64,000 bases of DNA, taken from contig JABYQU010000021.1 in NCBI GenBank assembly GCA_022264855.1, positions 62,001-126,000 of the forward strand, given 5' to 3'. The notes beneath the pieces are model-generated. The model was not told the DNA's origin. It worked only from the letters and a program-made list of their open reading frames with translations, and did not search any database. The DNA comes from Lenzites betulinus (taxonomy: Eukaryota > Basidiomycota > Agaricomycetes > Polyporales > Polyporaceae). Position 1 is the first letter of the stretch. Every line of letters starts with the position of its first letter. A program made the translations under genes and the position numbers. Below are positions 19,545-43,876 of this stretch, piece after piece.

Positions 19545-21520
19545 GGTGTCCGCCTGGTGATTACTATCGAGCTTCGATGTGTCCCCACTCCATAGCGTAG
19601 TGGTCTATGCCTTCATGACATTAGTGCTTTGGCGAAAACCTCATGCATATCCTAGAACTAGAAGAGCATGGAAGTCAGAAGCCGTCCGCGTTTCCCGGAG
19701 TTGGAGGGTTTCCCGAAAAGGGCGCCTCTACGAACCTGCCCTAAACTCACCGCCGTATAAAATTGCGCTCCCGACATCGCTGTTTCCTCAGAACATACTC
19801 AGCTAGGATCTATTTTATAGGTACTAACTCGAGTCTCGCATGTTTACACATGCCACATCCTTCTTATCCAGCCGATGACTTCAGCGTCCGCTCGTATAAC
19901 CGAGAACATGGCTGCCTTCGGGCGGTCTCGAGGACGTTTGGATCGTGTCTGCTTGCCCTTTTCGGAGTGGCTTGGAGCGCGAACCAGCGAGCCGGACGTA
20001 TGTCTGATGGATTCCTTTGTATTGTTATTCGTTGTATACATATGCGCCTGCGAATACATTCTCTGCTCTCGTATCATCCTCCATTGCTTCACCTGGGAAC
20101 TGCCCTTTCACGGCCTTTGAAATTCTGCGGGAAGGGTTACCGATGTGTGGACGACGCAGGTATGTCTTTCCGCGGTAATGTGTTGAACAATAACCTAACT
20201 GCATGTAGACAACGCTATGTCATAGTCCGTTTGTTAAGGCATGCTCGTATCAACGAGACTCCTACATAATCATGATCATAGCTGTCGCGACTACATATTC
20301 GAAAGGTATACTCCACATGGCATATACAATGTTACTAATGCACAAGCCTCCAAAAACCGTTCCGTGAAACCACCGTTGTTATCTGCCTTGTGAACGTTGA
20401 CAGGACCACCAACGAATCCTGTGATTGATGAACAGGTGAGTAAACCGCTCCGCTCCTAGCCCGCGCATGGAGTTTAGACGTACGAGGTGCCATGCGCCTC
20501 AAACGTTCACTCTAATGATCAAATCGCCGGGTCAGTCAAACATAAACTTCAAGGCAATCACGAAAGTGTTTACTAGTGGTATCGGGGATCTCGATGTGCC
20601 CACTGTCGTTCCACAACGACGCGTCGACGACGGGGACGACGGCAGCGCTCGCAGCTGCAGGTAGTGCCGCCGCGGGGCTGCCACAGAGAGCGGCGACGAG
20701 GACCAGGAGGATAGGTGCGGCGGTGAAGTGCATGTCGGTAAGTGCTGATAATGAGCTGGATGTGCGACCCAGGCAAAGCTCGCGGCCCTCATATACTCAA
20801 CTCTCCCCCAGGTCGTTCGCACGGAACGGCGTCGGCATCAACAGTACACATCCCCGACGTACTTCTTAGGTGCAGTCGCCCTGTCTACTTTGACACTCTT
20901 CCACAACTAACGCACTCATAGGATTCTCTCCGTGGTCATATTGACTCCGCAGCGGTTGCAATATGCTCTCCGAGGTCTGCGGACGTACATCACATCGTAC
21001 GTCCCGCCTGGACAGCGTGCTCGAAGGAGTTCGATTACAGCCTCGCAAACAGCCATTTTCTGGACATCCTATCGCGGCGGGGGAGCCAATCCATCTCGTT
21101 CTTCGATGTCAGATCCAACAGTGGGCGGCCTACTCGAGGACGACTCGTGGACAGATCAGGCACCTCATCCTCGAGGCAGCGAATCACGTTTATCCACTTC
21201 TCTACAAGATCCTCCGCTGGTGCTGCGCATACAACACGCATCGCTATCAGGGTTATGTCCGTGTGGCTGCAGCTCAGGGCACCGATGTCGAACCTCGTCA
21301 TGGTGCCCGTCCCCTGGATGAGGCGGGGCATTCATTGCGGCGAATGTCCATCGGTCTCGACGTAACGCTAGTTACCCCTGCCCCCTGGCTCTCGTGGCGT
21401 CGAATATTTTGTGCAAGACTGATTCCGCTCCAGGGCCGCACCGAGGACGGTACGTACGATCTGACCGGGCGTTCATCCCAGGCTGTCAATCCCCGGTCTA
21501 CCTACGACCACTTCTGGGGA
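19545..21520 (+). repeat. left arm of ~1.9 kb inverted repeat
   Basis: Sequence here recurs in reverse orientation at about 30270-32380. Examples are catgacattagtgcttt near 19615 against its complement near 32310, and atgtttacacatgccacatc near 19840 against 32080. Shared blocks extend through the peptide gene at 20.5-20.7 kb and into the 21.0-21.5 kb segment (rtEDGTY and SSQAVN frames). Identity is high but broken by indels. The arm carries one secreted-peptide gene in each copy. Confidence 0.78.
20507..20733 (-). CDS. small secreted peptide A (W-x-[GD]-x-x-H family)
   Basis: Predicted secreted peptide of 54 residues. ATG at 20733 opens MHFTAAPILLVLVAALCGSP, a signal peptide likely cut near AAA|LP. 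The short mature part ends with LWNDSGHIEIPDTT. The phase-1 intron is 20573-20512 (GTAAAC...CATTAG), leaving only AG+TGA, so the last codon is AAG (Lys). Exon 1 is 160 nt. The motif W-x-D-x-x-H-x-x-I is shared with the five other genes of this window. A TATATG element lies at about 20790-20795 on this strand. No dibasic Kex2 site is present. The function is unknown; the pairing with UstYa-type genes suggests a precursor peptide, but this is inference. Confidence 0.68.
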
Positions 21521-21540
21521 ACGCCGCTTGCGTGAGCGAA
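20930..21540. other. duplicated segment, possible degenerate gene
   Basis: This block matches about 30520-31010 in reverse orientation. Several frames stay open in both copies (for example MTRFDIGALS on the minus strand here against MTGFGIDALS on the plus strand there), but a 5-nt indel and further differences break every frame in one copy. No domain is recognisable. It may be a decayed gene or a transcribed non-coding part of the repeat. Confidence 0.4.
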
Positions 21541-21865
21541 TGGAACTTTCCGCAAGCATTATTTTATCAAATGCAGATGCATGTGTTGCAAGACGCTGTC
21601 GGTATGTGTCCCTGGTGTAATTTTGTAATGATATGTTGACCTTATGCAAACGATAGCAGAGATGAGTAGTGTGCGCAAGCATCTTTAACAACGCTAGAAC
21701 GTTTGCAAGCCATCTATCATGGTACAGCGGCACTGACGACACGGCAGATACATGTTCATCCAGCTTCAAGTCCAATCCGCACAAACGTTGTGCACCGCAT
21801 GCATCAACATACAACCGAGTCTACATCATACTACGCACACCTGTAAGCTTTCGAACTCGCGCCCC

Positions 21866-22213
21866 TCACTTCCCTCCTACAGCGCGCTTCGCCTCCAGAA
21901 ACCCGAGCAGCCCGTCGAGTGGGTCAGGCCGCGGCAGCGCACGCGTCTCGATCCTCTGTTCCGCCAACGCCTCGTCGAACACGCTGGCGACGTAGCGCAG
22001 CCGCCGCGCCGCGAAGCCCCACACCAGCAGGTTCACGATGACCAGGACGATCACCCCGGTCTTCATGCTGAAGATGCGGCTCGCCGCCGAGTTCGCCCGC
22101 GTGGTAGTGGGCTCGCCCCCAGCGAGCGGTAGGTGGAGGACGGAGTCGCCCTTGGTGTGGTCGGCTTCGTCTTGCCCGTCGTAGTCAGACCTCAAGCGGG
22201 CGTATTCGGACAT
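21866..22213 (-). CDS. 115-residue single-pass membrane protein, left copy
   Basis: An uninterrupted frame from MSEYARL to LEAKRAVGGK. The N-terminus is acidic and hydrophilic (DYDGQDEADHTKGDS). One transmembrane helix follows at about residues 52-70 (GVIVLVIVNLLVWGF), then AARRLRYVASVFDEAL, AEQRIETRALPRPDP and LDGLLGFLEA. It is about 88% identical to the plus-strand copy at 34948-35295, and most changes sit in the linker between residues 30 and 45, so selection on the protein is likely. I do not recognise the family. It lies between the peptide gene and the seven-helix gene, a neighbourhood repeated in rearranged form around 35 kb. Confidence 0.72.
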   Translation of the reverse strand: MSEYARLRSDYDGQDEADHTKGDSVLHLPLAGGEPTTTRANSAASRIFSMKTGVIVLVIVNLLVWGFAARRLRYVASVFDEALAEQRIETRALPRPDPLDGLLGFLEAKRAVGGK

Positions 22214-22654
22214 GGCGAAGGCTCAGATAAGTGCTAGGAGAAGCTGCTCGTCAGCGCAGTGTCGCAGTGTCCCAGGCGAAAAACTCATACAGGGTTTCGG
22301 AGGATCCTTGGGGATGAAGAAGCAGGCCGACGCGGACGCCACCATTATCACCCACGCCCGAGGGAAGGTTTGCTCGACGCGATAATGCGACGTCCGTGAG
22401 TAGAGCATCTGTTAGAAGCATGTCTGAAAGAAAGTTGGAACACCGCAGCCCAGGACAGCGGTTTCGATACCGGGCGTTGCGGATCAAGTCAAGAGGTGCT
22501 GTTCCTGTGAGTAAACTACTTTCTACTGTCGGGCTGCTCGGAGTCATTGCCTGACAAGTACCGCAAAGAAGATGCTCAAACTTCGTAACGGTGTCTGCGG
22601 CCAAAACTAGCAATCAATTGTCCTATGTACATTGACGAATATAGTAAGCACATA

Positions 22655-24009
22655 TCAAGACGAAGTTCCCGAAAGGCTCTGCCTTTCCGGGTCCTTCAAC
22701 GCCCCCTCATCACCACTGGAATCGACAGCCAGAGTAGGCGCTTTCTCGCTCGTATCCGCCGATTCCCCAACCTCGCCCTCCGTTCCAGACTCCCTCACGC
22801 TCGCCACGCTGCCCACCGTCTCCACGTCCGCGGGCGAATTCGCCGCCCACTCGAGCTGCGACACGTACTCGCTCCTTCGCCCCGCCCCCGTGCTGTCCGT
22901 CGAGATCCCAAGCGCAACACGGATGACGATGAGCGTCGGCGCGATGCCCTGCCAAACGCGAACGCGCACGCGCGATTAGTCGCGCCGTACTAAGACTCTC
23001 AAAACCGAGCGCGGGAAGCACTTACATATAGCTGCACCGCGATTGCCGCGACGATACCCTCCGCATTGTTCGACGACGAGACGAGCACAACGAGCACGAT
23101 CTGCACCGCGAGGTAGATCAGCCCGCTCTCGACGATGACCGCGATCGCGCGCCGCGCCAGTCGCACCGTGCTCCGCAGCGCCGGGTGGTCCTCTGCGGAA
23201 ACGGCGGCGGTGGCGGGCGCCCCGACGGGCGCGGCGAGCGGCGTGCGCGTCATCCACCAGATCCGTCCGACGAGCAGTCCACTGGCGATGACGTTCGTGC
23301 AGAGCGAGAGCGCGTAGCCTGCGGTAAGCAGCGGGATCGCTGCGGGCGGGAGCACGGATATGCCGTGTGGGCGGTCCGCGAAGATAAGGTATGCGACCAC
23401 GACGAGGCAGCCTGGTGTGCGCGCGCGAGGCCATCAGCCTGCGAGCCTAGGGCGCGCCATCCGTGAGTGCGTTACGTACCGTCGCCAGCCAGAGCGGTGA
23501 GGAAGGGAAGGGCGGCGACCCAGTATTTGCCCTTGTACATGTACCAGCAGCGGTACAAGAGCATGATGTCACCGAGGAAATTGCTGAGCGAGATGAGCGC
23601 GTCCGCGCCGATCAGCTGTCCTTTGTCGTCGGTCCCATAGCCCTGTATGCCTGTGATGTGCTGGATCCACGTGAGTGGGTGGTCTGTAGCTTCTTGTACG
23701 GTACTCACAACGGCCTCGTAGAAGCGGTGGAACTCTATGAAATAGTGCACGGTGCACGTGGCATACAGTAAACAGTGGACGGCGCGGATGAGCGGGCTCA
23801 ACGTCTTCATCTTGTTGCTCCGCCGGAGCAGCCATAGCGATCGTATGAAGATCCCGCTGTATACCACTGGCGCGAGGTAAAGAAAGTTCAGTCGGTCATC
23901 CAGACGCGCGAGACAGGACGAGGGACGCACCCCATAGCACAGATTCGGATCCGAACTTCCCGACTAGGTTGGGGAGAGCGTAAGAGGGAGGGTCGAGGGA
24001 CGATGCCAT
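22655..24009 (-). CDS. seven-helix membrane protein, left copy
   Basis: Spliced gene starting MASSLDPPSYALPNLVGKF at 24009. Helix-bearing exons follow: SVLWG then VYSGIFIRSLWLLRRS, AVHCLLYATCTVHYFIEFH, LIGADALISLSNFLGDIMLL, GKYWVAALPFLTALAG, PLLTAGYALSLCTNVIASGL, AVIVESGLIYLAVQIVLVVL, and GIAPTLIVIRVALGIST. The soluble tail is Ser/Glu-rich and ends SLSGTSS (stop at 22655). About seven helices are visible. A diverged paralogue on the same strand lies at 28836-30058. Proteins of this build are frequent in Agaricomycetes with no assigned role; receptor-like or transport functions are both possible. Confidence 0.78.
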
Positions 24010-24552
24010 TATCGCGTTCGCCTGGAACGACGGGAAGGTACCTGTAGCAGTGAAGCGAGCAAGGCGCAGGGGCTCGGCTAGCAGGATATATGCTCGACGT
24101 GCTGATTCTGCCGTCTGGCTGTTCGACCGCTGGCAGATACGTCAGGACGCTACTGAATGCGCGCGAAGCCCGAGGCGAGCTGCGCGTGGGTGTGCTGAAA
24201 TCTCTATGGCGATCTGGGAAGATCCTCGGGCTGGAATCAGGCGTATTTGCGCGTCGAATGGCTCCGAAGTAGTTCAGATGTTCGAACCTGTGCAGTGCGG
24301 TATAGGAGCAGAAGTTTGGTCGAGTCGCTCTATCATGATCTATGGAGCAGGCTGAGACAATTCGTGGTGAGAATTGCCTTGCGGCCGATCAGTTGATACA
24401 TTGCGCTCAAAGCCGTCCCACGGTTCGTGCTTCGAGACCCACAAAGAGCGCAGTGTTCCCTGGCTAAGACCGCTAACCCCGGACATACATGTAATACGAC
24501 TGAAGCACATCAGTACGAGTTTCCCTATGGTTTGAAGACGGACAACGTTACC

Positions 24553-25652
24553 TTAGTATCTTCGATATGCCGGGGGGAGCGTTGCAGGCGTGATATTCCC
24601 AAGCTCGTCTACAGTGTCGCTGAAGGTCTCATCGGGCGGATCGCCAGCCAGACGTATACCTCCATCTTCTTCGTGCGCTGGAATCGCACTTCCGAGACTA
24701 TGGCTCTTGGCAGTTCTGACATTAAAAAGGTCTGTAAGAGGTGCACCTGCCACGGCGCTGCCCGCACTCAATCCGCGCGCCCCGCCCGCTGTAGCGCCAG
24801 CAGCGAGGTTGTCAACTTTCGAAGACGGTCCCCGCTCATTTGCGTTCCGCCTTGGAGCTGATTGTGGCTTGGATCTCCTGCTGCGCCGTGGCGGGCCGTC
24901 GAACGCTGGCAGTCCAATGTCACTTGCGGGGAGGGAGACGATCACTGCCGCGGCGTCCGAGAGTGCTTCTTGTGGTGGGTTGTCGGTAACCGGAGATGGG
25001 AGCGGAGAGGGCTTCGGCGGTGACATGAATGGCTCTTGGACTGCGATGTATCATTTAGCCAACTACCGGTTACTAAGCGTCGTGAAGTTGACAACTCACT
25101 CTCGAAGAATAGAGGCTGCTTCCGTCTGCGCCTACGCCGGACAAAGATGAGCGCTATTAGGACGCTGGTCACTATTATGCAAGCCCCAACGGCGATGCCG
25201 GCCAGGTCCCCCACGTTCAGTCGAGATGGCGAAGGGGTTGGTGTAATCGGAGCAGGAGAGCGAGAGTGAGATGCGTTTGAGGAAGTAGGTGACGCGAGAG
25301 AGCTGGTGGTACCAGTGGACGCGGAAGAGCGAGAAACCAAGAGGAGAGAAGAACTGGAGGTCTGCTTAGACAAACAATCGTTGGAACCGTCGATGGCAGC
25401 GATGGCCAGGCTCGTGCGCGATGCACCCTTACTATCCAGGATGGATACATAAAAAGCGCACCCAGAAGGTACGGACACGTTCCAGTATAACGAGGTGTCT
25501 TGGAGATGAGGGAAAGTTATGCTTTCGTTTATCGGTACGTTTGTCGTGCAGGGGTTTGTCAAGATTGTGAGGCTGTATTTCGGTACTCCGCCTGACCACA
25601 AGATCGGCAGCAACGTGCATTGGCTGACCATTGTCAGAAAATCCATATTCAT
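24553..25652 (-). CDS. Ser/Thr-rich single-pass surface protein, left copy
   Basis: An extracellular domain with GGV.....L, Y-W-N-V-S-V-P-S-G and L-D-S-K-G-A-S-R is followed by a Ser/Thr/Pro-rich stalk (SSSSLLLVSRSSASTGTTSS). One transmembrane helix follows (VGACIIVTSVLIALIFV) with an RRRRRRK stop-transfer. A phase-1 intron near 25099-25040 joins the cytosolic tail, which contains RRSRRSKPQSAPRRNANERG and ends LPPAYRRY at 24553. The layout resembles fungal wall-sensor or mucin-like proteins. The N-terminal exon and the signal peptide are not certain; the 25652 ATG is the first in frame. The paralogue at about 32972-34148 lies in the opposite orientation and shares the intron position. Confidence 0.7.
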
Positions 25653-27701
25653 CTCGAGCTGATCCCTAGATCTGGTGGTGATGAAGTAAGGTGATCATGT
25701 CCAGAAAAAGGGATGAAGCGCAACGGACCCGATATCTCGCTTGCTCCTGTCGGAGCCAACAGGATACTTTTGCGTAGTCTCATTCTTCGTCTGCAATTGG
25801 CGTGGATCGAGGCTACACTCCGACTCGGAGGGTGTCGCTGAATCTATGAATAATCTAGTTGAATTCGAGCCTATGCAGCATTACGAATCGCGAACCTGCA
25901 AGGTTCAGCAGATGTGCCACTTCCGACATGGATGACCCTATTTCCCGCGCAGTCGCTGATGATTTGTCGGGTTGGTCGCCTGTCAGTGTGGTTCAAAAGA
26001 GAGGTGCAAGTATGCGGAAGATTGTGAAGGAGAATGTGTAGCGGCGAGGGGAAACTTGAGAGCAAGTCGAGGACTGATCACGGGCACAAATATCTGAGAA
26101 ACCAAATACATCAGCTGCGAGGGACGTGGAATATTGAGACGACACTCTATGGCGCGCAACCTGAGATCGCAGTATGGTGATTGGATATACTATTCCTTAC
26201 AGTTTGTTGGTTGGACTGCGATTATTGAGGGCCCCAAGGCCTCAAGTCTGAAATCTGAAGACTTCAAACTTGTAGTGATAGCAACGACTGCCACACTGCA
26301 CGATTCGTCTGACGACTAGTGGCCATTTCGACTATACTATTGTAGCCCTTCTTCTGTAGGACGTGCCTAGTGATCCACATCTCATAGGTTCACTAAATTT
26401 CGAACATACGTAAGCGTTTCAGCCAGACTCGGAGTCATTGAACGTGCATGCTATCACTGGCACTCACCGACGTTGGATTGCCTCCTCGTCGGCGTGAATC
26501 ACCCCGGGCTCACATAAACAAATGCTCCGGGCGACCACCTCAAAGTGAATTGAGTCCATACAGTCTGGAACCTGACCAGGTGTAGGAGGAGGAGCTGAGC
26601 CAGCTTTTGCTAACAGTTTCTTTGTCCTTATTTACAAACATAGTATCGGGGCGCTTAGTAACCGTGAGTTTCGAGCTGCCACCATGATCAATCGATCAAG
26701 TCCCGACTCACTATCCCAGCGCTGCGCTCACAATTGCCACTGATATGTCAGGTAAATCCTGTATCTGTCGTATCTTGGACTTGGACAACAGATGACGCGG
26801 AATGTTATCACGGCGCGCGTCACTCACTCTTCTGGCCTCTGGTTGGCAGATGCGCCGGCAACGCCAGGATGCTATTTGCCTTGTCGCTGTATACGGCATA
26901 CATCCAGTATACATTGCTCAACAGGGCTATACTGATGGGTGGTACCACGTGCGGGCTCACATCGTCAAAACTCGCGGGGATTTATATATTTATAGCTGAG
27001 CTCAGTAGTATCACGGTGAGTACGCACTTTATTGCTACGGCAGCAACCATACATGATCATGATATATATGTTGGACATAGCTGCATGGCGAGGAGCATCA
27101 AATCCTCCCCGAAGTTGAAGGCGCCCGCGTGGCGAACTGTGGTCCTCCCTGGGTAACCTTCTCACCAGGGCTGTCCTGGCTTACCCCCGGGAGGCCATCA
27201 GGGCACTCCGGTATAACACGGACCCTCTCCAGCCTACCGCGTGTACGTAGCTACGAACACTGCAGTTGACTTCCTGTGTTCGACATCCTGTATTCGACAT
27301 CATGTCCCTCGCGTCCGTCTGGTTCCGCCCCAACTGGCAGCACTGCGAACCGTTCGGTGAGCTTCCCTGTTTCTTGGCGCACTTTCCTCCCACGAATTGT
27401 AGGGTAATCCAGATTGGTAGGCCCCTGGGCGAAAGAGTCTTCGGGCCGATGCCCAAGATGCCCGCCTCCGGGCCTCAATCTACGAAGCGCATTGCTAGGC
27501 TCCGCGCACGCCGGGCATCCAGTCCGCTGGGTATGGTTCACGGCCTGGACTGAGGGATCTGCCATGTGGCTGGTATCCCATGGCGTGCGCAAGAGGCCCC
27601 TTGCTCGCGAGCGTTCCTGATAAACATGAGGACCTCACGAATGTCGTCGAGTACGAGAAGCCCAGTCATTTGCTTCCTCTACACTGCGTACACACTCGTT
27701 C
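25653..27701. other. intergenic, no gene seen
   Basis: Two kilobases with only short unsupported frames. GGCACTCACCGACG near 26459 resembles the CTCACCG element of the peptide promoters, but no signal-peptide frame follows it. This stretch must contain the promoter of the UstYa-type gene at 27702. Confidence 0.4.
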
Positions 27702-28384
27702 ATGGATAACCGCTCCGCACTCTCGTGGAAGGGCCCCTTCTACACCCTCCTCGCCTTCACGGTTCTGAATATCGCTTTCGTCGCCCGCATCTCTCGCATT
27801 TTCCAAGATGTCATGCCTCGGGAGGTCGCATACAGTGAGCGCACCCATCCAGTGCACATACCCTGCCTCGACCACTGACGACTGTCACCTCCCCAGCCTG
27901 GATCGGCGACGACTACCCCACCGAGCTCCCACTCAAGCTCCCGCCCGTCGCGCTCGAGTTCGACGGCGCCGCCCCCGCGCACTTCGCGCTGCTCGCCAAC
28001 GACGACTGGGCGGCGGCCTTCACGCCCGACTTCGGGTTCACGACCGTCGGGCCCGCGCACCTGAACCGCACCTTCCAGCTCGCGATGCAGCACCAGATGC
28101 ACTGCCTCGACGCGCTGCGCGTCGCGCTCGCGATGGGCGGGCCCGCGGACCAGCTGCCGCACAGCGAGCACTGCCTGCGCTACCTCCGCCAGAGCGTGCT
28201 CTGCTACGCGGACACGACGCTCGAGGAGAGCGCGGTCGCGGTGCATAATGGGAGGCTCCGGCATTTGTCGCAGCAGGGGTATGGGGTCGTGCATCGGTGC
28301 AGGGACTGGACGGCGCTCAGGCGCTATCAGGAGGAGCACCCGCCTGTCGACCTGGGGGACGCGCCTGAAGGTGCGGAGGGCTAG
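27702..28384 (+). CDS. UstYa-family (DUF3328) oxidase homologue 1
   Basis: Type II membrane protein of about 206 residues. Exon 1 (27702-27834) gives a short N-terminus and one helix (FYTLLAFTVLNIAFVARI). A 62-nt intron (27835-27896) leads to TWIGDDYPTELP. The two family motifs are present: HQMHCLDALR and HSEHCLRYLR, the second followed by CYADTTLE. It ends near WTALRRYQEEHPPVD. In ascomycetes such HxxHC proteins (UstYa/UstYb) carry out oxidative cyclisation or cross-linking of secreted ribosomal peptides in ustiloxin and cyclochlorotine pathways, probably with copper. Here the gene sits between two copies of the membrane-protein set and 3-7 kb from secreted-peptide genes. Coding sequence is strongly GC-rich. 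The biochemical role is inferred from the family only. Confidence 0.85.
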
Positions 28385-28835
28385 TTCGGCGCAGGTGCCT
28401 CGTTCCGCTGGGGAGGAGTAATTGTGCGGTGTAGGGTGGCGTTTCTTCACAGATGCAATACGATGGGAATGATGACGTCTCCGTTCGAGTCGCCATACGG
28501 CCACACTCCCGAGTCCGTAGCGTTACTTTCGGGAGAACTTTAAAGAGCCGGAACATCTTTCCCGGTGGATTTTAAAGAACACACTTTCAAACGACCTGTG
28601 CTCGGACAGCGTACGTATTACGAGAAATGTCGTAAATTCGCATGCATCATTTACAGAAGCTAAGTGTAGTTACATACAACCCCGGTATAGAAGAGCACCG
28701 ACTCCAAGAGACTTTTCGAGACTAACAGAAGACCAAGGCACAGAAGCCGATACATAGTCCGCCCTCTTCCAACTCCCACCACCCATACCCGAAGCACCGC
28801 CCGCCGTCCGCCGTCAAGCACGCACATTACAGTGA

Positions 28836-30058
28836 TTACACAGGCCCGACCGCGAAGCTCGGGGTCGACTCGCCCGTCTTCATCTCCGCAGAGTACTCGG
28901 ACGTGCTGCGCTCGAGCACCCGCGTCGTGCTCTCGCCCGGCACACGCCGACCAACGTTGCGCACGCCCGGCGCCCACGAGATCTTCGACACGCACTCCAT
29001 ACCGTTTGTCGTGTACGTGCTGCCGGTAGATATACCCAGCGCGACGCGGATGACCATGAGCGTCGGCGCGATCCCCTGCCGCGAAGCGCAGTTAGCCAAT
29101 AGCGCTTTGACCTCGGAGAGATTTACCGGGCAGACTCACGTAGATCTGCACGGCCAAAACACCCGCGATGCCCTCCGCGGGGTTCTCGAGCGAGACGAGC
29201 ACGACGAGCACGAGCTGCACGGCGAGGTAGATCAGCCCACTCTCCACGATGACCGCCATCGCGTTGTTCGCGAGGCGCGCGGTGCTCCGGAGCGTGTTCG
29301 AGGACTGCGTGTGGCGCGTCATCCACCAGATCTTGAACACGAGTAGCCCGCTCGCCATCACGTTCGTGCACAGCGGGAGCGAGTACCCCGCGACGGTCAG
29401 GGGCACGATCGCGGCCGGGGGTGCCGGCGCAGAGGGGGACAGCGTGACGACGAAGTGCGCGACTTGCATCATGCAGCCTGTTGCGATTGTGTGGTGTGTT
29501 AGTACGGGTGATAGGAGGAGGGGAGGGTTGGGCCCGTACCGAAACCGGCGACCGCTGAGAGGACGGGGAGCACGAGGACCCAGTAGTTGCCGCGCCACAT
29601 CGCCCAGCAGCGGTAGATGAGCATGGCGTCACCGAGGAGATCACATATGGAGATGAGGATGTCCGCGCCGACAAGCTGCTTGGTCTCGTCGGCATAGCCG
29701 TTCACACCGACCGCTTGCTAAACGGAGGCGAACTGTTAGGAGCGAAGCCCCGGGAGATTTCGCACAATAAAACTTACAAGAGTGGTGTAGAAGTGGTTGA
29801 ACTCGATTCCGTAGTGCGTCGTGCACGCAGCAAACAGCAGACAATGGATCGCGAACACCGTCGGGTTGAGCTCTCCCTTGCGGCCCCGCCGCAGGAGCAG
29901 CCCGATTGAGATTACGAAGAGAACACTGTACACGCCTAAAAACCGAGTAAAAATATGCATCTTTCAAAGCGGAGGCTGTTCGCATATATAGAAGACATAC
30001 CCCATAACACGGATTCGATAGCGAACCCGACCAACGCGGCGGTGTCGTTCGATATCAT
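28836..30058 (-). CDS. seven-helix membrane protein, right copy
   Basis: Paralogue of the gene at 22655-24009, on the same strand. It starts MISNDTAALVGFAIESVLWG at 30058 and continues through VYSVLFVISIGLLLRR, FAIHCLLFAACTTHYGIEFN, LVGADILISICDLLGDAM, GNYWVLVLPVLSAVAG, VPLTVAGYSLPLCTNVMASG, AVIVESGLIYLAVQLVLVVL, and GIAPTLMVIRVALGIST. The C-terminal tail ends STPSFAVGPV (TAA at 28836-28838). Helical segments are well conserved between the two copies; tails diverge completely. Exon borders fall at the same places, so this is an old duplication. The role is unknown. Confidence 0.78.
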
Positions 30059-30269
30059 CGTAGGCTCGAGCAAGAGGGACGTGAGACCGGTCCTGGCGTT
30101 CCCGGAGGTTCTTATAACGTTGTCAGTGCGTTATAAGTGTATGGTGGGGCCTTGGAGATGCCAGTGGCGAGCTAGGCGACAGATGGGTCAAAAGGCGGAC
30201 ATCGCAAGACAGGCGAGCTACGTACCCCGGCAAGATGGACACAGGCCAAGGGGATAAGGCACGACTCTT

Positions 30270-32380
30270 TCAGCGTTTCACTTCATCAGGTGTGCGCGGA
30301 CGATGAGCATACGCATAACCTCTTCGAGCTCCTAGGAACATGGCCCGCCCCAGACTGCGGAAGTCGGTCGTGTCATCCTCCGTGTACGCCGCGCCACCCA
30401 CGCGTCGTCCAGGATTTACCATGAGCTCGCCACTCGAGGCAGCTTCTCGCGGAGATTCCTCGTCGTGTGGCCCCGTGATTGAGAATCTCGTCTTCATCGC
30501 CTTCTGGGCAATTGTTGAACGTAGGTTGCCGTAGGTAGACCGAACATTGACAGCCTGGGATGAACCTCCGGTCAGATTGTACGTACCGTCCTCGGTGCGG
30601 CCCCAAAGCGGAATCCGTTTTGCACAGAATGGACGCCAAGAGAGCCGGGAGGCGGAGTAATCAGTGTTACGTCGAGACCGATGGACATTCGCCGCAATGA
30701 ATGCCCTATCCAGAGGACGGGCACCATGACGGGGTTCGGCATCGATGCCCTGAGCTTGGATCGTAAGGACGTAACTTTGATAACGATGCGTGTTGCACGC
30801 GCAGCGGCAGCGCAACACCCGCGTTGAGTAGTTCAACGACGAGATGCGGCGTACTGCACAGATAACGGATGGACGTCATCCGCTGCCTCGAGCATGTGCC
30901 TAATCCAGTGTCTACGAGGGGTCCTCGAGCAGACCGCCCACTGTAGAATCTGACATCGAAGACTGGGATGGGCGTATGTCCCCCCGCTGCGATAGGGTGT
31001 CTTGAAAGTGGTTATTTCTTGGCTGTATTCGAACTCCTCCGAGCACGCTATCCATGCGGGACATACGAAATAAGTCGGGGTATGCGTACTCTTGACGCCG
31101 TTACGTGCGAGCGATCTGGGGGAAAAATTGAGTATATGTAGGCCGCGAGATTTGCCTGAGTCGTACATCCACAGTACTTGTCATCGACGTGAACTTCTTC
31201 GCACACCCAACACATTCTCAGCACTTACCGACATGCACTTCATCGCCGCACCTATCCTCCTGGTCCTCATCGCCGCTCTCTGTGGCAGTCCCGCGGCGGC
31301 ACTGCCCGCAGCTGCGAACGCGGCCGGCATAGAGTCCGGCCCCGTCGTCGACCTGAAGTTGTGGAGCGACAAAGGGCACGTCGAGATCCCCTCTGGTAAG
31401 GACTGTCATGATTCTTTGAAGATTGTATAGGCTTGACTGACCCCGGTAACTTAATCATCAGAGTAATCGTCCGAGGCGCATAGCACCTTGTACGTCTGTG
31501 TATGTCAATGCGCTGGGAGTGGAACGGCCTGCTCACTTACTCTTCAATAGCAGGATTCGACATACATATGGCCATGGCCCTAGGCCTAAGAACGGTTTTT
31601 TGAGGCTTGGGGAATCAGTAACATGAATGACATGTGGAATACCTTTCGAATATGCAGTGGTGACAACTATGATTATGCTCTTGTCATATCCTCATTGTTA
31701 CGAGCATTCTTTGACATCCGGCCTTGCGTTGTACATCTACATGAAGTCAAGATACTGTTACGCACATTATTATGGAAGGGCTTACCGACGACACCCTGTG
31801 GGTGTATGTTGAAAGCGCTCCAGGAACGATATCGCAATCCGCCATGATGACACGAGAAGCATAGAATGTATTCGCGGGCGCATAGGTACAAGACAAAGAT
31901 GTATACAAAAAGGGATCCATCAGACATACGTCCGGCTCGCTGGTTCGCGCTCCAAGCCACTCCGAAGAGGGCAAGCAGACACGATCCAAACGTCCTCGAG
32001 ACCACCCGAAGGCAGCCATGTTCTCGGTTATACGAGCGGACGCTGAAGTCATCGGCTGGATAAGAAGGATGTGGCATGTGTAAACATGCGAGACTCGAGT
32101 TAGTACCTATAAAATAGATCCTAGCTGAGTATGTTCTGAGGAAACAGCGATGTCGGGAGCGCATTTTTATACGGCGGTGAGTTTAGGGCAGGTTCGTATA
32201 GGCGCCCTTTTGGGAAACCATTCAACTCCGGGAAACGCGGACGGCTTCTGACTTCACAGTAATCTTCAAGTTGTGGGATATGCATGAGGTTTTCGTCAAA
32301 GCACTAATGTCATGAAGGCATAGACCATTAGGCTATGGAATAAGGACACATCGCAGCTCGACACTAATCAGCGAACGAAC
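30270..32380 (-). repeat. right arm of ~1.9 kb inverted repeat
   Basis: Reverse-orientation counterpart of 19545-21520 (see that entry). It contains secreted-peptide gene B and, at 30520-31010, the counterpart of the possible degenerate gene. The far part, 31680-32330, aligns with 19610-20250 and seems non-coding in both copies despite a long open frame (MRSRHRCFLRTYSARIYF on the minus strand here, plus strand in the left arm). The arms enclose about 9 kb. Confidence 0.76.
31233..31466 (+). CDS. small secreted peptide B (W-x-[GD]-x-x-H family)
   Basis: Predicted 55-residue secreted peptide. ATG 31233 opens MHFIAAPILLVLIAALCGSP. The mature part ends LKLWSDKGHVEIPS. The phase-1 intron is 31396-31461 (GTAAGG...CATCAG); the second exon is only AG+TAA, giving a final Glu. 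The gene is the inverted-repeat partner of peptide A: the signal peptide is nearly identical, while the middle differs (AAGIESGPVVD against AAVVPVVD). This is the pattern of a conserved leader with a changing core. AGTATATGTA at 31131-31140 is a plausible TATA box about 100 nt upstream of the ATG. Confidence 0.7.
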
Positions 32381-32971
32381 ACCCGTTAAGATAGGAGCAA
32401 GGCAGTGGCTGAGGCGGCAATCCGGCGGCGGTAATCGATTGTATCTAGGTGCATAGGAGTCTGAACGATGTCCTAGACACAGGTGACATCCGGCGACCCT
32501 ATGAGATGTGGGTAACCACTCGTTTCCTTTGAGTGAGCAATCGTCGTCCACATCTTTCGCAGCTCATGTTTGTCGCTTTTCAGATATTTGTGGCGCTCTG
32601 TGGATGGCTTTCCATATATCCTCGATCCACCACTCGCCACCACACCGTGCACCTCCACGCTCGTAGTTCTCCGCATAGGAACTCTTCTGTCTATACTACA
32701 CTGGCAGTCAATGTGCCGGAACACAAACAGCAACCATAGCACGCATGCAGAACCGTATAGGTTCGTAAACCGACGTGTTGCTTGTACTCCAATCCGTCTA
32801 ACTTGTTTACAGCACACACAGAACTACTACATCCAACCACGTCCTCGGAGTCTCGCAGGCGCAGCCACAGTCCACGCGTATGGCGGGCGAGGATGGCACC
32901 AAGCCAAGGGTATCTAGTTCTCACCGGCTGGCCCGCGACGGACTTGATGTCGGGTTGGTCGCTCTTCTTCC

Positions 32972-34148
32972 ATGTTCGCCTATGCCTTTTGCTCAACATG
33001 CGAAATCCGTTACTCCAGCAGTACGTTGAAGTTTTCCACGCTCTTCCCGATAAGCGTCACCCAGTGCGAGTCGATACCAATCGATTGGACTGGCGGAGTA
33101 CCGCCATACAACCTCACAGCCATTGGCGAAGTCTTATTCACCAGCCCAAGCATACATTTCACGTATCTGCAGGACACATCATACCAGTGGAACGTGTCAG
33201 TACCTTCTGGGCACAGTTTTTACTTGAGGGTAGCAGATAGTGTGGGCGGGGTGAACGGAACAGACGCAAGCCCAATCATCAACGTCCTCGATGGTGCCGA
33301 CTTCTGTCTGTCTGCGCAGGCCTCCATTTCTGCTCTTCCCTCATCGTCCCCCTCTGCCGCGTTCATTGGTACTCCCAGCACTCTCGCACTACCTCACTAC
33401 TCTGTTCCGACTGCAGCAATACCCTCCTCATCTGTATCTTCATCAGCTTCTGGAGGGCCCCCACTTAGCGCGGGGGAACGTGTCGGCATAGCAGCTGGGA
33501 CATGCTCAACGGTCGTCTCTGTTCTAATCGTCGTCAACTTGATCTGTCGCAGGCGTAGTAGCCGCAAGCAGTCTCTGTTTGAGGGTGAGTTGCCAGTGCC
33601 ACCTTTGCGGCGCCCGACTAGCTAAACAACGCTTCACAGTCAAGGAGCCCTTCACGTCTCAAAGGAGCCGGCCTATACCAACCCCAACTACCGGTATCGA
33701 AGCACACTCCGATGCAGCGGCAACAATCGGGTCCCGTCCCGCGAGTAGCTTTGTGTTGCCAACACCAGACGCTTCGCCACGGCGCAGTGCGCCGCCAAAG
33801 CAACAGTCGCCCCCGAGACGGAACGCACGCCAGCGGGGGCGGTCCGCGAAGCTCAACAATGCCGCTGGCGGTGCGCCGAACGGAGCGCGGGATGTTGGGG
33901 TCCTGGCGACTGTGCGCAGTGCTTTAACTTTAGGCCGAGCGGCGGCAGGTGCTCCCCCACTGGAAGGCCTCGTGGATGCCAGAATCGAGAACGCCAGTCT
34001 CGTTGCCGTGTGCAATACCCATGAGGAAGACGGAGGGGTGCGACTGGCTGGCGGGCCGCCCGACGAGGCCTCTAGCAATGCAAGGGAAGAACTCGTCGAC
34101 ACCGCGTCTGCGACTCGGACCCTACCCCCGCCATATCGTAGATACTGA
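32972..34148 (+). CDS. Ser/Thr-rich single-pass surface protein, right copy
   Basis: Paralogue of 24553-25652 in the opposite orientation. The extracellular part carries IDWTGGVPPYNLTAIGE, TYLQDTSYQWNVSVPSG and a Ser/Thr/Pro-rich stalk. The helix is VGIAAGTCSTVVSVLIVVNL followed by CRRR. The intron 33585-33639 (GTGAGT...CACAG) falls at the same codon as in the left copy; the tail begins VKEPFTS and ends LPPPYRRY. It shares HEEDGG[IV]RLAG and PPDE with the left copy. The start is uncertain: 32972 is the first ATG of this frame, but the signal peptide may lie in an unresolved upstream exon near 32947. A cell-wall sensor or surface role is a guess from layout. Confidence 0.7.
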
Positions 34149-34947
34149 GGTAACGTCGTTTGTCTCCGTGCTATGGGAGAACTGGTCCTAATGAACCTCA
34201 GCCGTATTACCTATGTCCGGGGTCAACGCACCTGGCTAGGGAACGCAGTGCGTTCTCTGGTTGTCGAAGCATCTGTCATGAACGGTGGGACGGCTTCAAA
34301 TGTAATATATCAACTGATCAGCCATACATACGCCAACCCTCAACGTTCAACACGAGATGTCTCAGCCTGCTCCTTGGATGCTGATTGAGCGACTCGACCA
34401 GACTTCTGCTCCTATAATGCAGTGTACAGGTACGAGCATCGGAACTATCCGGGGGCCATATGTCCGCTTTCGAAGCCCAAGTGCTCCTGATACCAGCCTC
34501 GAGGATGAGCCACTTTGGGCATTTTCCTTGCAATACTCGTCAAAAAGCAGCGACGCCGATAAGCCCGACGCGGTAGTAGTACTTCAGTACTTACTTAGTC
34601 GCAGGAACGATACTTCTTAACTCGATTCGCGACGCCCGGTGTCGGAACCGGCGTACTGTACCACCATGTCCAAACTTTCTTTTGGACGTGCTTCCATATG
34701 ATGCGCTACTCATCATGCAACCGCGCCGATGCGTGCGCTGTCCCCTTTCAGAACGCCACAAGGACGTCGCGTTATCGTGTCCTCGAGCAAACCTTCCCTC
34801 GGGCGTTGGGGATATGAACACCCTCCGCGCGGACCCGCTTCTCCGCCCTCAAGGATCCTGCGCGAGCCTATCCCTCGTAAGTCTTCCAGCCGGGAAACAT
34901 GCCGCGCGACTGTGCTGACGAGCGACAACTCCTCAGTCGTCTTCACC

Positions 34948-35295
34948 ATGTCCGAATACGCCCGCTTGAACTCTGATTACGACGGGCAAGACGAGGCCGA
35001 CCACGCCAAGGGCGACTCCGTCCTCCACCTCCCACTCCCCGGGGGCGAGTCCCCCACCAAGCAGACGCCCTCAGCGGCGAACCGCATCTTCAGCATGAAG
35101 ACCGGGGTGATGCTCTTGGTCGTTGTGAACCTGCTGGTGTGGGGCTTCGCGGCGCGGCGCCTGCGCTACGTCGCCAGCGTGTTCGACGATGCGTTGGCGG
35201 AGCAGAGGATCGAGACGCGTGCGCTGCCGCGGCCTGACCCGCTCGACGGGTTGTTGGGATTTTTGGAGGCAAAGCGGGCGACAGGAGGAAAGTGA
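34948..35295 (+). CDS. 115-residue single-pass membrane protein, right copy
   Basis: Single-exon paralogue of 21866-22213. MSEYARLNSDYDGQDEADHA opens it at 34948, the helix is GVMLLVVVNLLVWGF, and the C-terminus is LLGFLEAKRATGGK. The helix and the segment AARRLRYVASVFD-[ED]-ALAEQR are almost unchanged between copies, while the linker (GGESPTKQTPSAAN against GGEPTTTRANSAAS) varies. The family is unrecognised. It may assist the neighbouring membrane oxidases, but no evidence exists beyond position. Confidence 0.72.
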   Translation: MSEYARLNSDYDGQDEADHAKGDSVLHLPLPGGESPTKQTPSAANRIFSMKTGVMLLVVVNLLVWGFAARRLRYVASVFDDALAEQRIETRALPRPDPLDGLLGFLEAKRATGGK

Positions 35296-35540
35296 AGGAT
35301 GTGGGTTGGAAAGCTTACAAGTCTGTGTGGTAGGGTGTGGACACGGTCATATGTTCTTCCCTGAGGTATATACTTTTCGGGAGGCTTGATGAACCTGTCT
35401 CAACCATGTTGTCGTTTCTGGTGTACCGACTGTACATACATTGTACAGCGCGAGAAGCACGTACAAGCTGGACAGACAACAGGCTACAAAATCGATACGG
35501 AGACCTATGTCCTCCGCTATCAGGACCAAAGCTCCATGAT

Positions 35541-39117: not shown

Positions 39118-39758
39118 ATGGGGTCGCAGTGGACGTTCGCCTGCTACTGGCTCACAGGCTTCACCGTCCTCAACATACTCTTCATCACCCACATATTCCT
39201 CACGCTGGAAGGGATACCCCCCGTGCCCGTCGTCTACTGTGCGTATGCCTGCCTAGACAGCTGCTACCAGCTCGTATGCTCACATAGCTCCTAGCATACG
39301 TCGGCGATGACTTCCCCACCGAGCTTCCTGGGGTGCGCCTCCCCGCCGTCGGACTCACCCTCGCGCCCCTCACGGAGTACTTCGCGACCGAAGCCGACGA
39401 CGAGTGGGCCACTGTGTTCCCCCCGCACGATGGTTTCACCGACCTCGGGCCCCATAACCGCACGTTCACGATCTCAATGACGCACCAAATGCATTGCCTC
39501 GACGTCTTCCGCGTCGCGTTCGCCACCGGGTCCCAGGAGTACGCGTACCACGTCGGGCATTGTTTGAGCTACATGCGCCAGAAGATCCTTTGCATTGCGG
39601 ACACGACGCTCGAGGCGGCCATTGTGGGCCTGGACGAGAGCGGGCAGCTGGGGTATGGGTCGACGGGGTATGGGTCAGTGCATCGGTGTAAGGATTGGAC
39701 GGAGCTCCGGCGATACCTTGCGGACCGCCCCCCTCTTCCCCCTAACGAGAAGCTGTAA
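39118..39758 (+). CDS. UstYa-family (DUF3328) oxidase homologue 2
   Basis: About 194 residues. Exon 1 (39118-39238) gives MGSQWTFACYWLTGFTVLNI and the membrane helix. A 56-nt intron (39239-39294) leads into SYVGDDFPTELPGVRL. Motifs: HQMHCLDVFR and HVGHCLSYMR, followed by CIADTTLE. The C-terminus is GYGSVHRCKDWTELRRYLAD. The intron phase and the position match homologue 1 exactly, so both descend from one gene, but they are clearly diverged (about half identical). The expected activity is oxidative modification of a secreted peptide in the secretory lumen. The peptide tandem array starts only 0.8 kb downstream on the same strand. Confidence 0.86.
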
Positions 39759-40464: not shown

Positions 40465-40491
40465 GTATATTCAGTGTATGTATACTCACCG
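40465..40491 (+). promoter_or_regulatory. TATA box and CTCACCG element, peptide C
   Basis: GTATATT at 40465-40471 and CTCACCG at 40485-40491, about 55-80 nt before the ATG. The same pair precedes peptides D, E and F at similar spacing. Confidence 0.5.
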
Positions 40492-40545
40492 GAGTCTACT
40501 CAGGCTCTGACTCGACGCCCGTTTCTCAAAGTCTTCAAAGTCAGG

Positions 40546-40745
40546 ATGCCGCTCAGCATCTCCTTCGTCGTGCAGCTCTTCGTCGCATTTTTGGCTGTTG
40601 TCGACGCCGTCCCATCTCTCCCTGACACTCCTGGATCGGACTCTAAATTCTGGAAGGGGTATGCACATGAGACGATCGAAGGTGTGTCTGTTTGCTACGT
40701 GTCGAGCCGCATACGAGCATCAGCTAACATGGCATGGAAGAATGA
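40546..40745 (+). CDS. small secreted peptide C
   Basis: Shortest member, 46 residues. MPLSISFVVQLFVAFLAVVD is the signal peptide, with cleavage likely before VPSLP; an upstream in-frame ATG at 40441 lies before the TATA box and is disfavoured. The mature part of about 25 residues ends KFWKGYAHETIE. The intron 40682-40740 (GTGTGT...TGGAAG) leaves AA+TGA, so the last residue is Glu. The motif W-x-G-x-x-H-x-x-I is intact. The stretch F-W-K-G-Y is the most aromatic core of the six. No Cys and no Kex2 site are present. Confidence 0.65.
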
Positions 40746-41564
40746 TTGGACAGTGACACGCACCATGATCTTCGCATAGTACGTCGAACTAGGTCTAGCC
40801 CTTTGTGCGCTTCGTAACGCTTGAGTCTGATATTGTCGCAAGAGCAGGGAGGGGAACCAATAGGCTCATCATATCTGTATGATTGTACCAGACTCTGCCA
40901 GGAATCATCAGACCGGGTTGTTCACTTACGACGCGTGATAGTATATAACGCGGCTACATCCTGCAAAAAACTTCAGTGGAAATCAACGTAAGATCGCAAC
41001 GCCTGTGTATACATGGGTTGGTGATCTAGGTTCAGAAGGCGGACTCACCTGGGCGCCGAGGCTGCGTTTGACTCTTGAGATGCAATGCCAACTTCATCGA
41101 TGCGGGCCGCACTCAGGAGGGAAGCATGCCATAGAGTCTCGCGCAGAGCTACCTTGGCAATGAAGTGCGCAAGATGAGCGAATCGGCTTCGTCCGCAACT
41201 CGTCTGTTTGCACTGAGTTCGATATGAGCTACACGTAATCGAAGCAAAATGGGAGGCAGTGGGTTCCCCCACCCTGGACCGTGTTGTGATGTATATTCGA
41301 AACAAGGACGTCCGGCGACTTCGGGAGCATCTACGGGCTTTGAAACGGTGACACCCCCCTAGAAGCACTCACCTCTCGTCAGACGTTTGTCGGCTTTGAG
41401 CGCACCAATTATGCCTGTCGGCCTTTTCAGGGTATAGCTCAGCTTGTAGATAAGCTTCCTTTAATGAGGCAAGACGTGGCCGGTCACCCGAAGACCCTCT
41501 ACGTGTGGCATCGATGTCTGCCATAATGAGGGGATAGTTCTGACATTAGCCTGTCAGTAGTGCT
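40746..41564. other. spacer between peptide genes C and D
   Basis: No gene seen. A minus-strand open frame (41045-41368) lacks any motif. The sequence just after the stop of C resembles the 3' flank of the other array members (cgcac..t..atggt pattern). Confidence 0.4.
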
Positions 41565-41588
41565 GTATATATGCATCCATGCTCACCG
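41565..41588 (+). promoter_or_regulatory. TATA box and CTCACCG element, peptide D
   Basis: GTATATATG at 41565-41573 and CTCACCG at 41582-41588. The transcript probably starts near the CTCACCG, so the ATG at 41627 is preferred over the in-frame ATG at 41579. Confidence 0.5.
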
Positions 41589-41626
41589 GCCGACTCAACT
41601 CCGTTTCGCTGGTTTTGCCAAACAAG

Positions 41627-41835
41627 ATGCTGCTCAACATCTCCTCCATCACGCTTCTGTTCCTCACATTCTATACTGTGGTTCAAACTGCCCCACCATC
41701 GACCGCCACGTTTCATGTGGACGTACCGTCCAGCAGCGGTGGGATCTGGGAAGGACATTTACACGCAAAGATTAACCGTGCGTGTGGCTACAAGTGGCCC
41801 TGTATATGGCTGTCAGCTAACATATCACAGAATGA
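41627..41835 (+). CDS. small secreted peptide D
   Basis: 51 residues. The signal peptide MLLNISSITLLFLTFYTVVQ is followed by TAPP. The mature region is distinct from the others (TATFHVDVPSSSGG) up to the shared end GIWEGHLHAKIN. The intron 41778-41830 (GTGCGT...TCACAG) is phase 1 and leaves AA+TGA, making the last codon CAA (Gln). The motif W-x-G-x-x-H-x-x-I is intact. It lies 0.8 kb downstream of peptide C, same strand, with its own promoter. Confidence 0.65.
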
Positions 41836-42717
41836 ACGATAAAGAATTACGCGCACACTTGCATGGTTCGTCGGCCAGCATCCTCTGTTCACTCCACGAG
41901 ATCCGAGGCTGATCCATTGCACAGCAAGCAACGGAGAAGCGGTGGCGATTCCTGTTCACCAAGTAGGCGGCTTTCCCTGAGCAAAGCGGAGGCATTAGTA
42001 TATCGAGCTTGATGTATGCGAGAGCGGATGCGCTGCTAGCCTAAACCAATACTCCGGGTTGTCTGAATGCACTACAACCTTCGGATGGAGGTCAACATTA
42101 TGTGAGTGCTTTGAAAGCAGCCTGTGTACGGGGAAGGACGCCCTGAGTTCTCGTACACCAACCTTCGTATCCGATTGATAGGTGTCCGTTCACTGGAAGG
42201 AAGTCAAAGGCTGTGAGATAAGGCCTGTAAAAGGGTTTGCAACTGAGACGGCTGAAACAGCTTCGACTCACAGGATGTACGACTGCTGCGATGGTCGGCG
42301 GAAGATATTGGCTGCGAAAAGGAAGTACGGCGACGTCGGAATCAGAGCATATTATGTTCTGTCGTGCCTGTGATGCTTGCCGCTTTATAAGTATAATGCA
42401 CTGCTCAGCAAGGTAAGTGGGCCCTGTCGCAGAGTTGACATCTGGTATCACATGGGTACGTCTGCTAATGCGAGCAGATGTTTACTACTTCTCCGGCGAT
42501 AGGGACGGTCTTGAGCTGTACCTTGTGCCTCTGTCCGCAGAGCTATACTGCGGAGTGTTTTGGCCAAATCCAGATATCATGGACTAGACGATGGCAAATG
42601 CACGCAGCCCGCCACTCGAGGAGGTACGCCACTCCGAGTTCGCCGCTTCGAGAAGAGCTCTCTGGTCATGGTTCTACGTCTTCCCTGATATTAGCAGAAC
42701 GCAGGGGTGAACCTGCC
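41836..42717. other. spacer between peptide genes D and E
   Basis: No gene seen. Near 42690-42710 the words agaacgcaggggtga and cctgc match the region upstream of gene F (about 43570-43590), so the E and F units are duplicated together with their promoters. Confidence 0.45.
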
Positions 42718-42741
42718 GTATATATGAACCTATGCTCACCG
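42718..42741 (+). promoter_or_regulatory. TATA box and CTCACCG element, peptide E
   Basis: GTATATATG starting at 42718 and CTCACCG at 42735-42741, about 76 nt and 55 nt before the ATG. Confidence 0.52.
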
Positions 42742-42793
42742 AGGGGCAACTGAACATTGGACTCGTTCACCTCCTAAGTTCATAGAGGACACA

Positions 42794-43011
42794 ATGCCGC
42801 GCATTAACGTATCCTTCGTTGTCTTGCTCGTCATCGCATTCATGGTGGCTGTCAACGCCGTCCCTCCTCCATCGCCCGCAGTCAAATCGGACAAACCGGA
42901 CACAGGATCCAAGCTACGGCCGCTCTGGAGGGGGTTTGCACACGTGAAAATCAAAGGTGCGTGTGCGACGAGTCGCCGTATACAGCTTTCGGTTAACACG
43001 TCATAGAGTGA
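42794..43011 (+). CDS. small secreted peptide E
   Basis: 55 residues. The signal peptide MPRINVSFVVLLVIAFMVAV is followed by NAVPPPS. The mature part has a charged middle (AVKSDKPDTGSKLR) and the shared end PLWRGFAHVKIK. The intron 42957-43006 (GTGCGT...CATAG) is phase 1 and leaves AG+TGA, so the last codon is GAG (Glu). Motif intact. Confidence 0.67.
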
Positions 43012-43593
43012 GAGATAGGCAATACGCGCACCTCTGTATGGTATGTCGACCAACGCTCTCTATGCATCCAACAACTCTGTGGCTGAGGTGACCATGCGGC
43101 TAGTGGGAGGCCATACATAGTGTCAGGCCAATATATCTCTAGTGATGGTAGTTTGATTAGTTCGATGTAAAGCGTGTCACAGTAAATGCATACCGCTTAT
43201 GCCGCCCCTCGTAGCCCCTCGTAGCCCTCGCGAGACCCAAATCTGACATCACGCTCTAGGTTCTCGTAGATAATTAATCTGCATATGTATGCAATAGATG
43301 TCCGCCTATGAGGCCAAACAGGCGGCATCATTGCTGCCAGAGTCGGCCGACGATATTGACTATGATCAAGGTATTTCACTGCCCAGCCTGGTTGGTCGGC
43401 CCAAGTCAGAGGCAGCTTCGGGAGTGTGTATTGCATCCTGGTTTTCCAGACTCCGCAATACGCAGTGTTGTGAGCGCATTCAGATGGGCCACCGTACGAT
43501 AGCAGTGAAACGTAGCCGGTTCAGTCGAGAATATCCTTGCGCATGACTCAATGTGTCTTCTGGTAATAGAAGAACGCAGGTGTGAGCCTGCGG
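43012..43593. other. spacer between peptide genes E and F
   Basis: No gene seen. The segment just after the E stop (43020-43065) resembles the one after the F stop (43890-43930), so 3' flanks are also duplicated. Confidence 0.42.
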
Positions 43594-43616
43594 TATATAA
43601 GCCTCCACACTCACCG
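43594..43616 (+). promoter_or_regulatory. TATA box and CTCACCG element, peptide F
   Basis: TATATAA at 43594-43600 and CTCACCG at 43610-43616, spaced as in units C-E. Confidence 0.55.
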
Positions 43617-43665
43617 AAAGGCCACAAACCAACTCTTCAAATCTCCCATGTCCATCCGAGCCAGG

Positions 43666-43876
43666 ATGTCGCTTATCGCCTCTTTCATCGTGTTGCTGGT
43701 TCTCGCACCCTGGGTCGCTGTCAACGCCGCCCCAGGTTCCTTAGCGTCTCTTGAGTTGGACGAACAGTCCACTCCACCAAAGTTCAGCCCTCTTTGGAAG
43801 GGGGATACGCACATGAAAATTGAAGGTGGGTGTGCTACGAGCATATGTGGATATGGTTTAACATTTCGCAGAGTGA
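43666..43876 (+). CDS. small secreted peptide F
   Basis: 54 residues from ATG 43666 (MSLIASFIVLLVLAPWVAVN); an in-frame ATG at 43648 would add six residues and spoil the signal peptide start. The mature part after NAAP reads GSLASLELDEQSTPP, then the shared end SPLWKGDTHMKIE. The intron 43826-43871 (GTGGGT...CGCAG, 46 nt) leaves AG+TGA for a final Glu. Motif intact. It is the last member of the array. Confidence 0.67.

Follow-up and report, generated by a model that had tools for sequence, protein, structure and literature searches.

The described systems closest to the one considered here are the dikaritins of Ascomycota (ustiloxin, phomopsin, and asperipin-2a), in which a precursor with a signal peptide is encoded beside oxidases of the UstYa (DUF3328) family. 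The ustiloxins and phomopsins carry a Tyr-Ile bond, and UstY enzymes of the ustiloxin type join an aromatic residue and an Ile side chain (PMC9233826). The DUF3328 protein CctR was shown to form a dimer that associates with membranes, depends on copper, and has two coppers in each monomer at a pair of HxxHC motifs, and its domain is predicted to lie inside an organelle lumen. Copper dependence through this motif pair is a feature of DUF3328 proteins, and other members of the family halogenate or macrocyclise, peptide cyclases being among them (PMC12435403). Pleurotus ostreatus has 16 UstYa genes, six of which are developmentally expressed (PMC8893723). A survey of Kex2-processed repeat proteins (KEPs) placed 103 of 1680 basidiomycete KEPs near DUF3328 genes and suggested for Basidiomycota either a different cyclisation motif or that cyclisation hardly occurs (PMC7329392), and a study of lichens, which described UstY clusters that lack a repeat precursor, considered that the precursor might have a single core (PMC12048977). 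UstYa genes are widespread in mushroom-forming fungi, and we found no report in the literature of what their enzymes act on in these organisms. Here we analyze a window of 64,000 nucleotides (nt) from the wood-decay polypore Lenzites betulinus (Polyporales; assembly GCA_022264855.1, contig JABYQU010000021.1, positions 62,001 to 126,000) with six genes for short peptides from which a ribosomal natural product is probably made, because the genes lie beside two copper-enzyme genes of a family known for oxidising and cross-linking peptides. These peptides show what form of precursor to search for and suggest a candidate pair of enzyme and substrate that could be tested in a laboratory host, and if the enzymes do act on them they would answer the question of the missing precursor for one polypore.

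The six genes (g1 to g6) can be read directly in the DNA, from which their splicing is predicted. The first-pass annotation of this stretch had placed them exactly to the base, splice sites included, and its estimate of 46-55 residues agrees with the spliced lengths of 54, 55, 46, 51, 55, and 54 amino acids (aa), respectively. Gene g1 (20507..20733, minus strand) has its first exon at 20574-20733, an intron at 20512-20573, and its last 5 nt at 20507-20511, and ends in the tail WNDSGHIEI-PDTTK; g2 (31233..31466, plus strand; exon 1 at 31233-31395, intron at 31396-31461; tail WSDKGHVEI-PSE) is its inverted duplicate. The other four, all on the plus strand, form a tandem array consisting of g3 (40546..40745, intron 40682-40740, tail WKGYAHETI-EE), g4 (41627..41835, intron 41778-41830, tail WEGHLHAKI-NQ), g5 (42794..43011, intron 42957-43006, tail WRGFAHVKI-KE), and g6 (43666..43876, intron 43826-43871, tail WKGDTHMKI-EE). 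All six peptides share one layout, a signal peptide, predicted by hydrophobicity, followed by [AVL]-P, 12-20 variable residues up to a Trp, and the tail W-x-[GD]-x-x-H-x-x-I at constant spacing. Only Met1 and the Trp, His, and Ile of the tail are invariant in the six-row alignment, the residue two after the Trp being Gly in four peptides and Asp in two. The C-terminal residue is always E, K, or Q, each peptide has no Cys or a single one inside the signal peptide, and no Tyr is conserved, two of the six containing any. A single GT-AG intron (46-66 nt, phase 1) interrupts the final codon of every gene, and exon 2 is nothing more than the remaining two bases of that codon and the stop. A branch site CTNA[CT] is present in the introns of four genes and TTAAC in those of g5 and g6, and TATAT or TATATA lies 61-100 nt upstream of all six ATGs. 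The g1/g2 pair is carried by a diverged inverted duplication that takes in parts of 19543-35388, in which one pair of 309-nt arms is 98% alike and the other ten arm pairs are 76-92% alike.

A scan for a hydrophobic, signal-like N-terminus followed by the W-x-[GD]-x-x-H-x-x-I motif picked out seven ATGs in 114 kb of the window's contig, which are the six genes, one having two starts. It picked out nothing in the 110 kb that surround the remaining UstYa loci, nothing in control DNA (40 kb, taken from four contigs), and nothing in 896 kb of sequence simulated with a second-order Markov model. Rough estimates (42-53 codons per pair) of nonsynonymous (dN) and synonymous (dS) divergence gave an overall dN below dS in 14 of the 15 gene pairs, many of them with saturated dS. 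For g5/g6 the values are 0.37 and 1.04 overall and 0.26 and 0.82 in the tail, and for g3/g6 the tail dN is 0.26 with dS saturated. The exception is g1/g2 (overall dN 0.15 and dS 0.14; tail dN 0.24 and dS 0), a young pair in which constraint is not visible. The variable middle that the first-pass annotation had taken as a sign of diversification is real, spanning 12-20 residues, but diversifying selection is not demonstrated by dN/dS, and for g1/g2 it is neither demonstrated nor excluded. A protein search of the genome with g5 returned g6 (E = 7e-8), g3 (0.006), and g4 (0.033), and then a match on contig C35 (0.48) that is taken as noise, and searches with g4 and g6 (as protein) and with g2 (as DNA) found family members in this cluster only. 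The searches with these four peptides, which are not exhaustive (that with g6 missed g3 and g4), gave no credible copy outside the cluster. No report of the family came up in the literature searches, which covered few preprints and subscription papers. Nothing in the window reached the gathering score of an Rfam family, and a known RNA gene was rejected as an identity for the locus.

What the first-pass annotation overlooked is that the peptide genes have UstYa neighbors. UstYa gene 1 (27702..28384, plus strand; two exons, 206 aa; public model C2E23DRAFT_190625) matches PF11807 (4.1e-20 in 27839-28384), begins with a predicted transmembrane (TM) helix, and contains HQMHC...HSEHC. UstYa gene 2 (39118..39758, plus strand; two exons, ends approximate) lies 0.8 kb before g3 and also matches PF11807 (2.9e-17 in 39288-39758), with HQMHC...HVGHC. 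The double HxxHC copper motif is therefore intact in both, and in an alignment of 29 of 51 database matches H110, H113, C114, H133, and C137 do not vary and H136 hardly does. A search of the 37.4 Mb genome found at least ten PF11807 exons, which fall into five places spread over three contigs; ten is a lower bound, as the list lacks the likely first exon of a UstYa gene at C23:132.7 kb (C23 being the contig with the W..H..I family). Both HxxHC motifs are retained in six of the ten, including the two of the window. DNA no more than 12 kb away from a UstYa exon amounts to about 0.16 Mb, or 0.43% of the genome, and none of the six peptide genes is farther than 7.3 kb from a window UstYa exon (7.3, 2.9, 0.8, 1.9, 3.1, and 3.9 kb for g1 to g6). 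The named relatives of the window UstYa genes are mostly from mushroom-forming fungi. Three UstYa genes, in the cluster or just past the end of the window, have relatives in Trametes gibbosa, with identities of 82, 76, and 87%. The contig that carries each relative is 804,812 bases long and is taken to be one and the same for all three, and because of these close relatives the enzyme part of the cluster probably predates L. betulinus. An AlphaFold model of UstYa 1 is poor (pLDDT 58, pTM 0.34), and the only features readable in it are a predicted N-terminal TM helix and two predicted helices, one for each HxxHC motif; no solved structure matched this protein by sequence or by profile search.

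The locus has two of the marks of a UstY-type RiPP (ribosomally synthesized and post-translationally modified peptide) cluster, in that a DUF3328 enzyme with two HxxHC motifs is accompanied by predicted secreted precursors 0.8-7.3 kb away. Unlike those of the dikaritins, the precursors here are short and unrepeated, lack Kex2 sites and a Y-x-I-x core, and are multi-gene instead of multi-core, in a basidiomycete host. A repeat-type precursor elsewhere in the cluster was sought and rejected: none was found within the single open frames of 224 kb, where the two frames flagged are both Arg-rich and were judged to be noise, or in a tandem-repeat check of 8-47 kb. The MSDIN precursors of Amanita resemble the six peptides as a family of short basidiomycete precursors with fixed and variable parts, but MSDINs lack a signal peptide and are processed by a prolyl oligopeptidase (POPB), whereas the peptides here have a hydrophobic signal and a different leader. 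The lipopeptide mating pheromones of basidiomycetes are likewise small multi-copy peptides with seven-transmembrane (7TM) genes nearby, but those known end in CaaX, and a CaaX pheromone was rejected for the six peptides in view of their signal peptide and their E, K, or Q ends. The KEPs are secreted precursors often encoded near DUF3328 genes in Ascomycota (PMC7329392), but the peptides here have neither repeats nor dibasic sites, and the burpitides of plants arise from peptide substrates in which copper enzymes form cross-links at aromatic residues, but those enzymes are of an unrelated family and in unrelated organisms (PMC12186524). Because the enzyme is of the UstY kind and the features of dikaritin and KEP precursors are lacking, we regard the system as UstY-like in its working and variant in its build rather than as a dikaritin, and our best reading of the precursors is that they are short and single-core, without the Kex2 repeats of dikaritin precursors.

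Based on these data, we consider it probable that the six genes encode precursors of a UstY-type RiPP, and a secreted peptide with an invariant Trp, His, and Ile beside such enzymes fits the role of substrate. The more specific form of this proposal, in which the conserved tail is itself the modified core, falls in our estimate a little short of an even chance. We propose that the precursor would enter the endoplasmic reticulum via its signal peptide, the removal of which would leave an N-terminal [AVL]-P, and that one or both of the membrane-anchored UstYa enzymes, the catalytic side of which is predicted to be lumenal, would then oxidise the W-x-[GD]-x-x-H-x-x-I tail. The likeliest modification would be a cross-link or a hydroxylation at the Trp, His, or Ile, and trimming would free small modified peptides that differ from one another at the x positions. 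A cytochrome P450 (35540..38040, minus strand; multi-exon, ends approximate, N-terminus assigned by eye) may modify the peptides further, and major facilitator superfamily (MFS) proteins, represented by exons at 10978..11196 and 14194..14421 on the minus strand (both PF07690, under the curated cut-off), may export them. The first-pass annotation had listed RiPP precursors, effectors, and signalling peptides side by side; the UstYa, P450, and MFS neighbors now favor the first of these, and the 7TM-like genes described below keep signalling open.

A second family of short secreted peptides, different from the first and with the C-terminus H-x-[ED]-x-x-W-L, surrounds the UstYa genes on contig C31. 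The tail is present in eight of the first nine members read, the ninth, at C31:271776, ending in HTHSARAWY; this variant was left out beforehand from the alignment, which has eight rows, and for two of these (C31:273109 and C31:301855) the splice sites were chosen by eye and are absent from the script output. When the genome was searched with one member, eight copies came up at E < 1e-4, all within C31:271-326 kb, and a search with another found itself only. In the protein database the eight peptides matched three public models, two of which (P0052 and P0053) equal the spliced predictions letter for letter, the third (P0054) keeping the predicted intron unspliced and having the same end. Counting three further copies, the tail occurs in eight of the 12 members read, and the family has a common leader and a last exon that is more variable than first thought. 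It lends support to the notion of non-repeat precursors beside UstYa genes and not to that of a universal tail.

Several results weigh against the proposed mechanism. None of the six peptides has a dibasic cleavage site that would account for their trimming, and no peptidase, and no tyrosinase or methyltransferase either, was recognised among the 40 window open reading frames scanned with Pfam, which are a subset of the exons. The six peptides had no match at E up to 1, self-matches included, among 5.8 billion proteins, a database that does include polypore proteins, although relatives of the UstYa genes do occur in T. gibbosa; because not even a self-match was returned the six genes appear to be unannotated, and for that reason the null result says little about relatives. 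It was in the surroundings of UstYa genes that the second family was noticed, and how far it is concentrated on C31 was then tested genome-wide with two members only; its copies lie as far as 28 kb from the closest UstYa exon, three of them at 10-28 kb. The two families have no recognition motif in common, and in an out-of-sample test of the H-x-[ED]-x-x-W-L tail none of the three new copies fitted, two of them ending in DDATC, with a stop where their relatives have the Trp, and one having an unrelated end. The two DDATC copies, at C31:308285 and C31:323275 (L035 and L036), are nearly identical to each other.

More speculatively, we put forward a wider proposal, tentative and on balance doubtful, in which basidiomycete UstYa enzymes act on short precursors with a single core and a split by an intron, a hidden class missed by both annotation and repeat mining. 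A genome would hold several unrelated tail families, such as W..H..I on C23 and H.E..WL on C31, that would become cross-linked through Trp and His, and the product of the window would perhaps be sensed by the 7TM proteins of the cluster in a form of modified-peptide signalling.

An alternative within the UstY-type framework, which we consider unlikely, is that UstYa recognises the precursor by its fixed tail and the core is the variable middle, as in precursors that have fixed sequence on either side of their core. The presence in six paralogues of a fixed tail next to a variable spacer of 12-20 residues would suit such a division, and a copper cyclase of plants requires a recognition sequence beside the core (PMC12186524), but that sequence is N-terminal to the core and not C-terminal, and the middle of the peptides here contains no conserved aromatic residue, varies in length, and differs by indels between g1 and g2.

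It is less likely again that the peptides are linear, pheromone-like signals sensed by the 7TM-like neighbors, with the UstYa enzymes as bystanders or acting elsewhere. Two such genes lie in the window, at 22655..24009 and 28800..30057 (both on the minus strand, the models approximate and the TM segments counted by eye), and a third, at C23:137 kb, is likewise beside UstYa genes. A genome search with the third returned the two window copies as nearest (1.8e-18 or better) and the next at 9.4e-8, making the three mutual nearest relatives, and its exon matches Pfam 7tm_1 under the cut-off (E 0.067; 13.1 of 30.5 bits). A fixed C-terminus could serve as a receptor ligand. However, no Pfam family reaches its cut-off for the 7TM-like exons, more distant relatives of these genes are scattered across other contigs, and the peptides lack the CaaX end that is typical of basidiomycete pheromones. 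The 7TM-like proteins could possibly act as receptors or in self-protection, and we keep open a receptor role for them, alone or added to UstY maturation.

That the peptides are small secreted effectors or antimicrobials, expanded by local tandem duplication and unconnected with UstYa, we regard as improbable. The tandem array g3-g6 and the inverted duplicate g1/g2 are consistent with such growth, and orphan families of this type are numerous in fungal secretomes, but a peptide with at most one Cys, located within the signal peptide, can have no disulfide fold, and the co-localisation with the few UstYa genes of the genome is repeated for the second family. A hydrophobin or Cys-rich effector was rejected on the same Cys count. 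Finally, that these are not genes at all and are chance open frames or decayed copies is hardly credible, for while the six peptides match no database protein and g1/g2 show no coding constraint, six loci share one signal-motif-intron structure with TATA boxes that never arose in the simulated sequence, and dN is below dS in all pairs other than g1/g2.

Around the UstY-type cluster so interpreted, the window contains further genes. A small single-TM protein of 115 aa is encoded at 21866..22213 (minus strand) and again, with 87% identity, at 34948..35295 (plus strand), and a genome search found these two copies only. Two single-TM, extracellular-looking proteins, at 25101-25691 (minus strand) and 33086-33625 (plus strand), are similar to each other by eye and have no Pfam match. 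An HMG-box exon lies at 18.2-18.4 kb, and a Helitron-type element with Helitron_like_N and PIF1 helicase domains occupies 54824-59198 on the plus strand.

At the other UstYa loci, candidate peptides on C61, at C31:373.7, and at C23:131 were not counted, being single unsupported models that were partly spliced by eye. A gene with a TM segment lies beside UstYa at both C31:289063-289452 and C31:371461-371784, the only two places found in a genome search; its second exon encodes a motif similar to VQFR-x-x-DFGMEDC, with a similar exon seen by eye at C61:104.9 kb, and it looks like a general UstYa partner. Because a search with the small TM protein of the window missed this gene, we claim no shared cassette. 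Near the UstYa genes of C61 there are three copies of an alpha/beta hydrolase, at 101.3 (L021:5307-5747), 92.2, and 107.4 kb, one with Pfam matches to Abhydrolase_1 and Hydrolase_4 and the others recognised by eye, as was a likeness to proline iminopeptidase, and this hydrolase is a possible trimming peptidase. A perfect inverted repeat with 655-nt arms and a 157-nt spacer is located at C31:282-284 kb (L025:6161-7627).

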